NCBI RefSeq assembly: GCF_009192765.1
Contig: NZ_VOHQ01000010.1
Span: forward strand, 62,001 to 126,000
DNA length: 64,000 bases
Source: Agriterribacter humi
GTDB taxonomy: Bacteria; Bacteroidota; Bacteroidia; Chitinophagales; Chitinophagaceae
Direction of reading: 5' to 3'
Part shown: positions 8,575 to 13,137 of the stretch, piece after piece
Numbering within the stretch: position 1 is the stretch's first letter
How the letters are laid out: every line of letters starts with the position of its first letter
Notes under the pieces: generated by a model
Database searches by the model: none
Seen by the model: the letters and a program-made list of their open reading frames with translations, nothing else
Told to the model about the DNA's origin: nothing
Position numbers and translations under genes: made by a program

Positions 8575-10113
8575 CTAATGCACTCTTGTTACGCTGGTAT
8601 AATTGATATAGCTGTATTTACCCAGCATTGTTCTTTCCATCATTAACTTATACTTTACCTGTTTCAATTTTGATTCTGTCAAAATGATCTCTTTTTTGGG
8701 TGTCATTGGCTTTATATTATTGTTCCGAAGCAATTCATACATTACCCTGCCCTGCATTTGTGCTGGGGCAGTTATATTATGAATGTGCAAAACAGTAGGT
8801 ACAATATCAATATTGGAAGTGGGCAAATTGCTTTCAAAGGCAGGCTTAAAGAATGGCCCGTATGCTATTAAAGGAATATGTATTTCATAGGGACTTGAAC
8901 CGCCATGCCCTGCCACGCCTCCGGCAAAATCCGTTCCCGCATATCCCAAACTGTTTTTATTGTTGTTCCAGTTTTCGGTAACAAGAATATCAGCGGCCCG
9001 TTGAGGATGATTCCAGTGAATGGATTCAAAGGACAGGGTTCCTTTTATTGCGCCTTTCATTGATCCTGGTTTGACAGCTTTTGTAAAAATAGCGCCTACC
9101 CATTCCTGTTCCTGCAATGCTTCAACAATCTTTTGAATCAGCACAGGGTTATGCGCTTTTACATACAAAGCGCCATCGGCTAATATGATATCATCAGAGT
9201 CTTTACTCTTTTTGAATCCCTTTTGTATTAAAAAATCTGTAAAGCCCTGCTTTCCCGTGTGGGTTACAAAACCATGATCGGCTGTAACAATAATATTAAA
9301 AACAGGCTCCAATCCCCTTGCCCGGATAGTATCCAGTATTCTGCCAAACTGGGCATCTACTGCTTTTAAAGCGGTTATCGTAATAGGTACGCCAATGCCA
9401 TGCTCATGCGCGGTGCCATCGGGATCGGAAAACCAAATAGCGCTTACTAACGGCCCATTGGCAACCAGTGTATACCTGCACAAGGCATCTGTGATCCATT
9501 GATGCCGCGCAGTATTGGGTGTAGCATCTTCAGGCGGTGATCCTATGGATGCAGTAAGCCCGGCTTTAAAAGCTTCCGGAAGTATAAGATCCGGATTGAT
9601 TATGGCGCCATTAATCGTATGATTTTGCAGGAATGCCTGTCCTGTTGTGCCCGAACTGTATACGAACATTTTTTCACCTTCTGCCCGCAGCACTTCGCCC
9701 AGTGAAGGGGCAGTAAGCAATTTACCGGAAGTAGTATCCATAATATGCCTGAGGTTACCGGCGTTCCCTGTACTTAAACTTTTTTGGGCATTTACCGCCG
9801 GCAGATATATCGCATTACCCATTAAACCATGTGCTGCCGGGTAAGAACCTGTAGCATAAGAAGCGGCATTTACTCTTGTAACGGTAGGGAATACACTATG
9901 ATTATCTTTACCATAGGCCGCTTTTTTTCTGAATGCATACAAATGAGGCATCCACTCCGGTTTAATATAATCCGGCCGCAAACCATCAAATACTACAATA
10001 AGGGTGTGTATTGCTGAAGTGTCCTTTTCAGCCACTGACGCTTGTTCTGCATGTGCATTAGTCGAAAAAGAAAAGATGAGTCCCCAAAAGGATAGTTGAA
10101 ATATGGATTTCAT
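8575..10113 (-). CDS. Secreted alkaline-phosphatase-superfamily phosphodiesterase (NPP type)
   Basis: A 512-residue type I phosphodiesterase/nucleotide pyrophosphatase with signal peptide (1-22, ending NAHA). The metal-binding Asp is in VFDGLRPDYI (D43); the nucleophile Thr is T79 in FPTVTRVNAASYATGSYP; later metal ligands include DPDGTAHEHG and TADHGF, and a C-terminal GGVAGHGG. Such enzymes hydrolyse phosphodiester or pyrophosphate bonds outside the cytoplasm; substrate not determined. Divergent from the SGNH hydrolase gene across a hairpin-rich intergenic region. Confidence 0.88.
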   Translation of the reverse strand: MKSIFQLSFWGLIFSFSTNAHAEQASVAEKDTSAIHTLIVVFDGLRPDYIKPEWMPHLYAFRKKAAYGKDNHSVFPTVTRVNAASYATGSYPAAHGLMGNAIYLPAVNAQKSLSTGNAGNLRHIMDTTSGKLLTAPSLGEVLRAEGEKMFVYSSGTTGQAFLQNHTINGAIINPDLILPEAFKAGLTASIGSPPEDATPNTARHQWITDALCRYTLVANGPLVSAIWFSDPDGTAHEHGIGVPITITALKAVDAQFGRILDTIRARGLEPVFNIIVTADHGFVTHTGKQGFTDFLIQKGFKKSKDSDDIILADGALYVKAHNPVLIQKIVEALQEQEWVGAIFTKAVKPGSMKGAIKGTLSFESIHWNHPQRAADILVTENWNNNKNSLGYAGTDFAGGVAGHGGSSPYEIHIPLIAYGPFFKPAFESNLPTSNIDIVPTVLHIHNITAPAQMQGRVMYELLRNNNIKPMTPKKEIILTESKLKQVKYKLMMERTMLGKYSYINYTSVTRVH

Positions 10114-10673: not shown

Positions 10674-11390
10674 ATGAAAAATCTTTATTTGCTTTTATTC
10701 TTCTTCTTTCTTAGTTCTTATCAGATACCGGTTAAAAAAGAAATTGCAGATCCTGCCAGTTACCTGGATACTGTAAAAACAGCGCTTCAAAAAGAATGGC
10801 CAAATAACCGCACGATTAACCTTGTTTTTCACGGGCATTCTGTTCCGGCCGGGTATTTTAAAACACCTGTTGTTAATACACTCGAAGCATATCCCTGCCA
10901 GGTGCTGAAGGCGCTCAAGACTGCTTATCCTTACGCAGTTATCAATATTATAAATACTTCCATTGGCGGAGAAAATTCCGAAAGTGGTGCAAAAAGATTT
11001 GCAACAGATGTACTGATCCATAAGCCGGATGTGCTGTTTATAGATTATGCATTGAATGACCGGGGCATGGGTTTGGACAAAGCGAAAGCATCCTGGGAAG
11101 CAATGATCAGGCAGGCACTGGAAAAAAATATAAAAATCATACTGCTAACGCCATCGCCCGATACAAGCGTTCATATTACTGAGCCCGGCAATGTACTGGA
11201 AAAACATGCGCTTCAGATAAAATCCATGGCAAAAAAATACGGCATAGGTCTGGCAGACAGCTATGCCGCATTTAAACAGGTTGTCAATTCAGGTAATAAC
11301 CTTGATGCTTATATGTCGCAGATCAATCATCCCAATGAAAAAGGACATGCGTTGATCGCGGAAGCGATATTGAAATACTTTCTTAATTGA
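10674..11390 (+). CDS. Secreted SGNH/GDSL-type hydrolase
   Basis: A 238-residue protein with a hydrophobic signal peptide (MKNLYLLLFFFFLSSY). The SGNH blocks are visible: catalytic Ser in FHGHSVPAG (S56; the block reads GHS not GDS), oxyanion Gly in NTSIGGENS, Asn in YALNDRG, and the C-terminal His in NHPNEKGH. Members act as esterases or lipases, often on acetylated carbohydrates; substrate unknown. The stop codon (11388-11390) lies inside the left copy of the 89-bp direct repeat, which shows that this gene formerly ended directly against the EEP gene. Confidence 0.85.
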   Translation: MKNLYLLLFFFFLSSYQIPVKKEIADPASYLDTVKTALQKEWPNNRTINLVFHGHSVPAGYFKTPVVNTLEAYPCQVLKALKTAYPYAVINIINTSIGGENSESGAKRFATDVLIHKPDVLFIDYALNDRGMGLDKAKASWEAMIRQALEKNIKIILLTPSPDTSVHITEPGNVLEKHALQIKSMAKKYGIGLADSYAAFKQVVNSGNNLDAYMSQINHPNEKGHALIAEAILKYFLN

Positions 11391-11473
11391 TTACCGCTTT
11401 AATCATTACCGGCTGATGGTCGGAAGGGTAACGCTGATCTTTGGCATCGGTAAGTACGCCATACTTCAATACT
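11383..11473 (-). pseudogene. Duplicated 3' end of the EEP gene
   Basis: On the minus strand this encodes the last 29 or so residues of the EEP phosphatase (including SDHQPVMIKAVIN) in frame and ends with TAA, whereas the intact gene now ends with TGA at 12298. It has no 5' part. It is best explained as the original tail of the EEP gene left behind by insertion of the module. Confidence 0.85.
11385..11473. repeat. Left copy of an 89-bp perfect direct repeat
   Basis: These 89 bp are identical base for base to 12300-12388. The right copy is the 3' end of the EEP gene. The left copy is fused to the end of the SGNH gene. Together they bracket the nucleotidyltransferase module. Identity stops abruptly at both ends of the repeat. 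Confidence 0.97.
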
Positions 11474-11485
11474 AAAGAAATTTAA

Positions 11486-11965
11486 CTATCCTTCCTCAAT
11501 TATCCTTTTGATTTTTTCCAGTTCAATAACATCTATCTGGTCTTTAGGTCGGTTAACAGCTTTCTTATTAGCTATGAGCTGGTTAATATGCAGGAAAGGA
11601 ATTTTCACATCATCTATAGCTGCAATAGCAGCCATTTCCAGGCTTTCATCAAAGCTGTATTCTTCCAGGCCTTTCATATTAATAATAATATCCAGGCGCA
11701 GTCCATTCAATAAATGAAAATCAGTCCAGCCCGGAACAAACTGTATTCTGTCCAACATGAAATAATCGCCCATCCCGCATGCCATAAATGCTGCCCTTAA
11801 TCTTTGCCGGTTCAGCGCCGTATCTTCGAGCCATATATCTATATCTCCGGTAAACCGGTGATAGCCATGCAGGTTAGCAGCGTAACCACCTACCATTATA
11901 TATCTGACAGCTTTGTTTTGCAGTGCTCTCCAAAAATTCAGTATTACTTTATCAAATATGTCCAC
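11486..11965 (-). CDS. Nucleotidyltransferase-fold protein (DUF6036/AbiEii-like)
   Basis: A 159-residue protein with the minimal nucleotidyltransferase fold. The signature GGYAANLHG (26-34) is followed by GDIDIW, giving catalytic Asp 41 and 43, and the third acidic residue is D92 in LRLDIII. All three are kept, so it is probably active. The C-terminal NRPKDQIDVIELEKI stretch is typical of this group. The start is GTG at 11965; no in-frame ATG lies nearby. It follows the 59-codon gene by 5 bp on the same strand, so the two form one operon. Related proteins serve as toxins or antitoxins of two-gene systems; the role here is unknown. Confidence 0.8.
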   Translation of the reverse strand: MDIFDKVILNFWRALQNKAVRYIMVGGYAANLHGYHRFTGDIDIWLEDTALNRQRLRAAFMACGMGDYFMLDRIQFVPGWTDFHLLNGLRLDIIINMKGLEEYSFDESLEMAAIAAIDDVKIPFLHINQLIANKKAVNRPKDQIDVIELEKIKRIIEEG

Positions 11966-11970
11966 AAAAT

Positions 11971-12150
11971 TTATTTACTCATATACGGCTTATGTGTTAT
12001 TGCCGCTTTTCGCATCGTTAACTGTATTTTATACAAACGTGTAGCCATTAAAAACCGCTCTTTATAAGAGCGCTTCAGGGCTTCTCTCAAAAGATCATCT
12101 CCGGCCTTTTCATATCCGGATACAGGTTCCTTGTTTTTTTTCCCGGCCAT
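11971..12150 (-). CDS. Small basic helical protein paired with the nucleotidyltransferase
   Basis: Translation of the minus strand gives 59 residues starting MAGKKNKEPVSGYEKAGD and ending HKPYMSK. It is strongly basic, predicted helical, and has the segment LREALKRSYKERFLMATRLY. It has an ATG start and stops 5 bp before the GTG of the nucleotidyltransferase gene. A promoter-like sequence lies upstream at 12193-12221. No domain is recognised. Small size, charge and tight pairing would fit an antitoxin or partner subunit, which is inference only. Confidence 0.65.
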   Translation of the reverse strand: MAGKKNKEPVSGYEKAGDDLLREALKRSYKERFLMATRLYKIQLTMRKAAITHKPYMSK

Positions 12151-12192
12151 TACTTGCTGATTTAATCACAAATGCTGAATGCAATTTAGGAA

Positions 12193-12221
12193 AAAATATA
12201 GCGGTAAGCAATACACTACAA
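12193..12221 (-). promoter_or_regulatory. Promoter of the small-protein/nucleotidyltransferase operon
   Basis: On the minus strand TTG (12219-12221), an 18-bp spacer and TATATTTT (12193-12200), one base off TAnnTTTG. It lies about 40 bp before the ATG at 12150, inside the inserted module, so the module would carry its own promoter. Confidence 0.45.
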
Positions 12222-12297
12222 CCCCGGTTATCTGTTTATATTTCAGGCTCTGACTGGCATATCGCATAGACCAGCCCTTTGAGACAGCCTCCTAATA

Positions 12298-13137
12298 TCA
12301 ATTGATTACCGCTTTAATCATTACCGGCTGATGGTCGGAAGGGTAACGCTGATCTTTGGCATCGGTAAGTACGCCATACTTCAATACTTTTATACCCTTG
12401 CTTACAAAAATATAATCAATGCGATTCTTCATAGGCGCGGTAAACTTAAAAGAATTGAACGTTCCAACGGGTCCATAAGGAGGATCCTGTGTTACTTTAT
12501 AGGAATCGTTTAGTATGGTTTGCATTGCCTGGATCTGCTCTGTTTCCGGGGTGGAGTTAAAATCGCCCACACATATCGCCGGTGCATTTTTTGCGATCTC
12601 CTGTATTTTTTTAACCATCAGCTTGCCCGATTCCTGGCGTGCTACAACACCCTGGTGATCGAAATGAACACTGAAGAAATAAAATGTTTTTTTGGTTTGC
12701 AGATCCTGGAATTTGCCCCAGGAGCAAATACGGTTACAGCATTTGGCATCCCAGCCTTTGCCGGGCTTATCAGGCGTTTCGCTCAGCCAGAAATCGCCGG
12801 AATCAAGTAATTTAAACCTGTCTTTTTTATAAAAAATAGCCGAATGTTCGCCGGCTTCTTTACCGTCGTCGCGCCCATGCCCCGTACGTGCATATGCTTC
12901 CATTTCCGAAATACCATTCATCTGATCTATCAATCCTTCCTGTGTCCCAAAAATATCAAACTCGTGAAACCGGATCAGGGCTTTTACATTTTCCTTCCTG
13001 TTCGGCCAGGCATTTAAACTGTCGTGGGAGTTATTATAACGAATATTATAGGTGGCGATAACTACCGGAGTATTTTTTTGAGCAATAGCGGATTGAATAC
13101 AAATGCAAACAAGCAAGGTTAAAACGATTCTTTTCAT
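12298..13137 (-). CDS. Secreted endonuclease/exonuclease/phosphatase (EEP) family protein
   Basis: A 279-residue protein with signal peptide (1-19, ending SAIAQ). EEP-fold motifs: ATYNIRY, GTQEG with the metal-binding Glu, VGDFNSTPE and the C-terminal SDHQPV with catalytic Asp-His. The family includes phosphodiesterases acting on DNA, sphingomyelin and inositol phosphates; a secreted stand-alone member of this size is usually annotated only at family level. It lies 279 bp downstream of susD on the same strand. Its last 29 codons are duplicated at 11383-11473. Confidence 0.88.
   Translation of the reverse strand: MKRIVLTLLVCICIQSAIAQKNTPVVIATYNIRYNNSHDSLNAWPNRKENVKALIRFHEFDIFGTQEGLIDQMNGISEMEAYARTGHGRDDGKEAGEHSAIFYKKDRFKLLDSGDFWLSETPDKPGKGWDAKCCNRICSWGKFQDLQTKKTFYFFSVHFDHQGVVARQESGKLMVKKIQEIAKNAPAICVGDFNSTPETEQIQAMQTILNDSYKVTQDPPYGPVGTFNSFKFTAPMKNRIDYIFVSKGIKVLKYGVLTDAKDQRYPSDHQPVMIKAVIN
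12300..12388. repeat. Right copy of the 89-bp perfect direct repeat
   Basis: Identical to 11385-11473. Here it is the functional 3' end of the EEP gene, except that the first two bases of the stop codon complement (12298-12299) come from the module side, changing the inferred ancestral TAA to TGA. Confidence 0.97.

Follow-up and report, generated by a model that had tools for sequence, protein, structure and literature searches.

A nucleotidyltransferase module bracketed by a duplicated host gene end in Agriterribacter humi, and the recurrence of this arrangement at related modules

We analysed a 64,000-nucleotide stretch of the Agriterribacter humi genome (contig NZ_VOHQ01000010.1, positions 62,001 to 126,000; hereafter the window), in which a small nucleotidyltransferase (NTase) module lies between two copies of the 3′ end of an adjacent gene. 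Both copies span 89 bp without a mismatch (11385-11473 and 12300-12388, their starts 915 nt apart), exactly where an earlier model-made annotation of this DNA—the sequence-only reading—had placed them, and they bracket an 826-bp insert (11474-12299) with a 59-codon gene and an NTase gene. The right copy is the 3′ end of an intact gene for an EEP-family hydrolase (12298-13137, minus strand; Exo_endo_phos match). The left copy is an orphan EEP 3′ end that carries the stop codon of a convergent SGNH/GDSL hydrolase gene (10674-11390, plus strand; Lipase_GDSL_2 match), which is likewise intact, so that the earlier claim of undamaged reading frames on both sides was confirmed. Other direct repeats of at least 16 nt reported between positions 9000 and 15000 were imperfect and reached at most 33 nt. 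The 1004-bp stretch formed by the repeats and the insert occurs once in the 5.69-Mb genome, and a search of that genome with the EEP protein returned the intact gene and the orphan tail, nothing else.

Close EEP orthologues (75–90% identity) were present in ten congeners (G001-G010), and no NTase was detected nearby in the flanks read, one of which (L006) ends at a contig end. An SGNH gene stood beside EEP in only one of the ten, G006 (L003). There the two stop codons overlap tail to tail, the repeat segment is present in a single copy and the 826-bp segment is absent, SGNH and EEP abutting directly. The left copy in the window runs on into SGNH coding sequence homologous to this empty site and, judging by that homology, corresponds to the original gene junction. 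Because the module was seen behind EEP in none of the ten congeners, an insertion new in the window's lineage would be a simpler account than a loss in G006. The empty site that the sequence-only reading had proposed to look for was thus found in one congener and, together with the recurrence of the arrangement beside other genes, supports its view that a unit was inserted into the EEP tail with duplication of that tail. The change of the EEP stop from TAA to TGA that it had also assumed is not needed, because the EEP gene of the congener ends in TGA like the right copy of the window; the left copy may have mutated at this position instead.

The two genes of the insert, both on the minus strand, encode an NTase of 159 aa with a GTG start (11486-11965) and a 59-aa partner protein (11971-12150) for which no Pfam, NCBIfam or PADLOC match was obtained; in a mechanical list of open reading frames (ORFs) these were the sole plausible genes. 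The NTase is related to the DUF6036, DUF2204 and AbiEii NTases, and it falls below the curated Pfam cut-offs (DUF6036, 20.4 versus 23.6 bits; DUF2204, 19.1 versus 20.3), whereas 14 of the 18 members of our alignment (A1) match each of DUF6036 and DUF2204 at E≤0.01. Weak profile matches (E ~1e-4 and 3e-5) were also obtained to chain 8an4, an AbiEii/AbiGii-family toxin that we take to be MenT, and to the TM1012 chains 4hx0, 2fcl and 2ewr. The top-scoring rows of this search against solved chains were designed repeat proteins in which no stretch passes alone, and were taken as noise. The three catalytic aspartates reported by the sequence-only reading are present (Asp41, Asp43 and Asp92), within a motif G[GS]...DxD plus a third acidic residue; the first two are found in 18 of 18 aligned NTases and the third position is Asp in 14, Glu in three and Asn in one. 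The promoter that it had placed in the insert remains putative: a sigma-70-type scan of the upstream region (12151-12299, minus strand), parts of which are also conserved in the G002 and G007 modules, gave no promoter, although such a scan does not cover the promoters of Bacteroidota. An ATG-initiated ORF of 35–110 aa lies upstream and ends within 60 nt of the NTase start at 174 of 182 NTase loci, a raw count without a chance control. Given this compact two-gene layout and the patchy distribution described below, we infer that the two genes probably form a toxin–antitoxin pair. The weak profile matches and the acidic triad resemble the NTases of MNT/AbiEii-type toxin–antitoxin systems; the window differs in its partner, a 59-aa protein without a family match (Pfam, at E up to 1) in place of the HEPN partner of type VII systems, and its function is putative.

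At E 1e-8, a profile of the NTase had matches in 151 of 394 genomes from the bacterial family, and their distribution was patchy. Two congeners carry the closest relatives (91% and 89% identity), each at another site; the window module and these nearest kin (~90% NTase identity) thus occupy different sites in three congeners. No NTase match was found in a phage collection at E 1e-5, and one distant match (33%) was found in a plasmid collection at the same threshold. Two sets of loci were assembled, a first that drew on 100 fetched regions, representing part of the places among the matches listed, and a second, named set from the best 80 of 233 relatives, mostly from Chitinophagaceae, Pedobacter, Mucilaginibacter and Sphingobacterium, which was reduced to 66 by dropping 14 loci on contigs judged to be the same as those already screened. 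One locus in which the profile found no NTase (L050) was excluded; some of the loci are orthologous, and the counts are therefore not fully independent.

The flanks were then screened for repeats by local alignment of the 550 nt before with the 350 nt after the NTase, at a score threshold of 18. One flank was reverse-complemented in the inverted control, and the shifted control used displaced, mutually non-independent positions. With the window included, 16 of 117 NTase loci reached the threshold, as opposed to 0/117 inverted and 20/941 shifted tests, the latter in 11 loci (Fisher p 2e-7); at a score of at least 30 the proportions were 9/117 and 18/941 shifted (p 0.0015). The second set yielded 4/66 loci, with 0/66 inverted and 1/623 shifted. 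Modules of the VapC/PIN type scored in 6/30 direct and 0/30 inverted tests, and ParE/RelE modules, which had been run as a comparison set, came out positive as well (6/30 direct; 1/30 inverted, L216, which scored in both; 7/29 with a longer upstream flank). SmpB loci gave 0/30 direct and 1/30 inverted, and EEP loci 0/56 flank tests. The flank-repeat pattern is therefore common to several toxin–antitoxin families, and it did not appear in either of the two remaining gene sets. These counts retain five NTase loci with weak or unexplained repeats (L127, L129, L152, L159 and L164) and a VapC locus with a 34-nt repeat of unclear kind (L410). They also retain L183, where a row of RelE-like, NTase and PIN-like modules, read by eye, is accompanied by up to five related copies of a 25–160 nt direct repeat (L183:3600-7654); as a family of up to five copies between several modules, these may be dispersed repeats.

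Two further observations were made on these loci. An upstream neighbour gene on the strand of the module was found at 132 of the 171 loci with a neighbour within 1.5 kb, out of 182 oriented NTase loci (again a raw count, here without a genomic baseline). In addition, the A. humi genome carries a second, distant NTase module (G000:C23:395976-396431; L052, L187) with a flank repeat of its own (62 nt, 4 mismatches), and a related locus in G006 has a longer repeat and ~1.1 kb more between the copies.

Inspection of the repeats, as the sequence-only reading had suggested for related modules, revealed that the end of the adjacent gene is duplicated at several loci. Beside NTase modules these were the 3′ ends of uvrB, mutS, an ABC transporter gene, a TetR gene, a DUF2130 gene and an NtrC-like gene and, as the one 5′ end, that of a cas1 gene which follows cas9; at VapC modules, an MBL-fold gene and an esterase-like gene had their 3′ ends duplicated. 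UvrB, MutS, ABC, TetR, DUF2130 and Cas1 are Pfam matches, whereas the names NtrC-like, MBL-fold, esterase-like, RelBE-like and cas9 were read from the sequence and not from a family search. Other flank repeats are intergenic, that of L254 adjoining the 3′ end of a tRNA-Arg. Over 17 tabulated loci the direct repeats of target sequence are long and variable (19–162 bp), and where their intergenic-side boundary was tabulated (nine loci), it always fell within −5 to +17 nt of the boundary of the gene; this table excludes the TetR locus, where the second copy runs into a contig end.

At four of these loci the intact and orphan copies differ in a manner expected of functional genes. Synonymous and nonsynonymous differences numbered 13 and 0 in mutS, 5 and 0 in the MBL-fold gene, 8 and 1 in the esterase-like gene, and 13 and 10 in uvrB. 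We simulated identical in-place copies followed by neutral decay of the orphan for mutS, MBL and uvrB. The mean expectation for mutS was 9.6 nonsynonymous changes, and zero was obtained in 0 of 2000 runs; zero in MBL had a probability of 0.005 (3000 runs), and 10 or fewer in uvrB a probability of 0.001 (1000 runs). Because protein changes are much scarcer than would be expected had an in-place copy decayed, a common origin of both copies from the same target appears unlikely at the four loci. Divergence of the two ends apparently took place when each still belonged to a working gene, and one copy was therefore probably imported from a diverged orthologue.

Comparisons between related genomes add to this picture. 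Behind mutS, the NTase unit and a unit of orphan end plus RelBE-like module are 92% identical between G112 and G188, versus 83% for the 3.7-kb mutS region; the order of these units differs between the two genomes, and the three gene ends form a mosaic. In two congeners (L166 and L172), NTase and RelBE-like modules stand behind mutS in different order, with full or partial mutS ends alongside. The ABC locus is, besides the window, the other place where a module is inserted relative to an empty site: G234 is empty where G085 carries the module (90–93% identical), and in a third congener, G280, this place is occupied by a diverged NTase module. In its last codons, the G085 ABC gene is closer to G280 than to the nearer, empty-site relative G234. 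The repeat at this locus (L099:5716-5803, L347) reaches the small gene of the module and takes in its first codons; the diverged NTase module of the other congener has 71% DNA identity. Behind uvrB, a DNA match to the module was lacking in six of ten genomes of the genus of G213.

We next consider what could move such a unit. The sequence-only reading had noted no transposase or integrase, and none was found among the eight window proteins scanned, which comprise the NTase, the unmatched small protein, hydrolases, phosphodiesterases and SusD, with the SusC-like neighbour excluded; the insert itself consists of two genes only. Over 17 loci the inner module ends vary, lying 197–361 nt before and 7–303 nt after the NTase match, and no shared motif that could serve as a constant end or common attachment sequence was discerned by eye, with four Pedobacter loci as a possible exception. 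In these (L254, L261, L262 and L267) a common block with a palindrome-like sequence (L254: TTTTAACACTGTGTTAGTATAGTGTTAAAA) lies upstream of the module, and its beginning marks much the same boundary in all of them although the host sequences before it differ. A tRNA 3′ end lies just upstream of the NTase module at 7 of 182 loci (L134, L143, L253, L254, L257, L262 and L311), five of the seven being tRNA-Leu, and an orphan partial tRNA-Leu was seen in three loci (L250, L257 and L270). As for the suggested insertion sequence (IS) origin, it had come from the 14-mer GAGGCTGTCTCAAA (12278-12291, minus strand), which recurs exactly at a single further place in the genome, where an ORF list read by eye showed no transposase-like ORF nearby; IS ends were not found at the module borders, and the idea is unsupported. 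Nor did a dedicated 3′-end-targeting cassette emerge, given the inconstant module ends, the failure to find an integrase and the occurrence of the same pattern at VapC and ParE/RelE modules.

We regard it as moderately probable that these are small, horizontally mobile two-gene modules that enter on DNA carrying the end of a neighbouring gene and recombine there. A donor fragment or circle would carry the module together with the end of the gene adjoining it in the donor, and this end would recombine with the same gene in the recipient, either by a single crossover once the ends of the fragment had been joined (Campbell-type) or through one-sided homology only; the gene would thereby be rebuilt with the module placed behind it, and the second gene end left as an orphan on the far side. 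This proposal is based on the empty-site difference with a congener, on gene-end duplications beside several unrelated genes, on module ends that vary and on the protein-constrained divergence at other loci; recombination at gene ends would account for the imported ends, for repeat boundaries that lie at gene ends, for the inconstant module ends and for the fact that no enzyme accompanies the module. Campbell-type integration, which the sequence-only reading had proposed for the window, gains indirect support from the copies at mutS, uvrB, the MBL-fold and the esterase-like gene, which look like ends of diverged functional orthologues. For the EEP locus of the window the route can only be inferred, because identical copies look alike after transfer from a donor of the same species and after pure target duplication. 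Such transfer would call for a donor from the same or a very close strain; failing that, the duplication arose in place, and pure target duplication is equally compatible with this locus. In-place duplication in general, with only the module coming from outside, is an alternative that we consider quite possible, if less than probable, and the following points weigh in its favour or otherwise against entry on a gene end. The copies of the window, with an empty site in the congener, and those of the NtrC-like gene (30 bp) show no differences, so that an imported end would be invisible in the window; DUF2130 (4 synonymous, 4 nonsynonymous) and TetR (1 and 0) are compatible with in-place copies; and a frameshift in the ABC orphan, like the stops and an indel in that of cas1, marks a decayed copy. 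The same description has been given for restriction–modification genes in the available text of three reports (PMC1643837, PMC3031569, PMC3874152). The excess of direct repeats is not clear at a score of at least 40 (5/117 versus 16/941 shifted, p 0.07), and most NTase loci (163/183) score below 18, a pair without flanking duplication being what the sequence-only reading had named as evidence against itself; age might account for some of this repeat-free majority, as certain loci were inherited from a common ancestor. At mutS, the last 1.1 kb alone is 87% identical between G112 and G188, and no donor was identified because the orphan end is about equally distant from G188 (15 differences) and its neighbour (13). 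The module of G405 follows uvrB, and a second uvrB end was not found there; neither a donor with EEP–module adjacency nor an excised circle was seen; and the mechanism offers no account of how a module first comes to a new gene. What speaks against duplication in place is the protein-conserved divergence between the copies at the four other loci; moreover, it does not by itself predict repeat boundaries near gene boundaries, to which selection for whole genes could contribute.

A tyrosine integrase or transposase acting in trans, with the repeats as attachment sites as in islands that rebuild a gene's 3′ end, would fit the bias to gene 3′ ends, the loci just downstream of tRNA 3′ ends, the orphan partial tRNA-Leu sequences and the boundary-like block of the four Pedobacter modules. 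We nevertheless think it unlikely, as the repeats vary by site and many are host gene ends, the inner ends are variable without a common motif, and the scanned window proteins include no such enzyme. That the arrangement is an assembly or tandem-duplication artefact, with no biological insertion behind it, is very improbable: the genome is a draft of 34 contigs, yet the insert is unique sequence within a 223-kb contig and the pattern recurs in other assemblies. Returning to entry on a gene end, a wider version of this proposal, which we rate as doubtful, is that toxin–antitoxin modules of several families share one enzyme-free route. The end of the neighbouring host gene would act as a portable attachment site; module and gene end would excise through recombination of the two copies, pass from one species to a related one, integrate again at the orthologous gene and could build permuted arrays, a feature proposed because the arrangement behind mutS suggests it.

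Many toxin–antitoxin modules carry no mobility gene, and the present pattern hints at how small modules may move without an enzyme of their own. The exceptional mobility of toxin–antitoxin modules was emphasized by Makarova et al. in 2009 (PMC2701414), in whose available text the term 'direct repeat' does not occur, and no account of such duplication for toxin–antitoxin modules was noticed in literature searches that reached few subscription journals. The recurring duplicated gene end is a signature that can be counted in genomes, and the test of synonymous differences separates imported gene ends from in-place duplication, which makes the movement of modules testable.

Tyrosine-integrase islands in gene 3′ ends rebuild the host gene and leave a displaced copy, as seen here, but at the loci described above no integrase and no constant attachment sequence were found and the unit is below 1 kb. 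A laboratory parallel for the proposed route comes from E. coli, in which DNA homologous at one end produced a gene-end duplication in 56 of 60 clones; 14 sequenced duplications measured 109–950 bp, and the authors, in the portion of the report available, explain them by a single crossover of circular molecules from which a portion of the gene end was missing (PMC3240628). Such single-crossover duplication from recircularised DNA with one-ended homology, or homology-facilitated illegitimate recombination, likewise leaves an insert bracketed by a duplicated gene end; that system was a laboratory plasmid experiment, whereas ours is inferred from genomes. Homology-facilitated illegitimate recombination has also been proposed for the orphan immunity-gene arrays of type VI clusters in Vibrio cholerae, which, going by the accessible text, share the insertion of a module anchored in a conserved region with displaced pieces downstream, but involve other genes and leave immunity genes instead of gene ends (PMC5361080). 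The closest known system is insertion with long target duplication, which, as described in the accessible parts of work on restriction–modification genes (PMC1643837, PMC3031569, PMC3874152), has in common with our loci a unit inserted with respect to a related genome, long and variable direct duplications of ~100 bp and the lack of a linked mobile element. Its original description is reportedly that of Nobusato et al. in 2000. The mechanism described for those genes would thus be extended to NTase/small-protein, VapC and ParE/RelE modules of Bacteroidota, with the further difference that at four loci here the two copies have diverged as functional gene ends.

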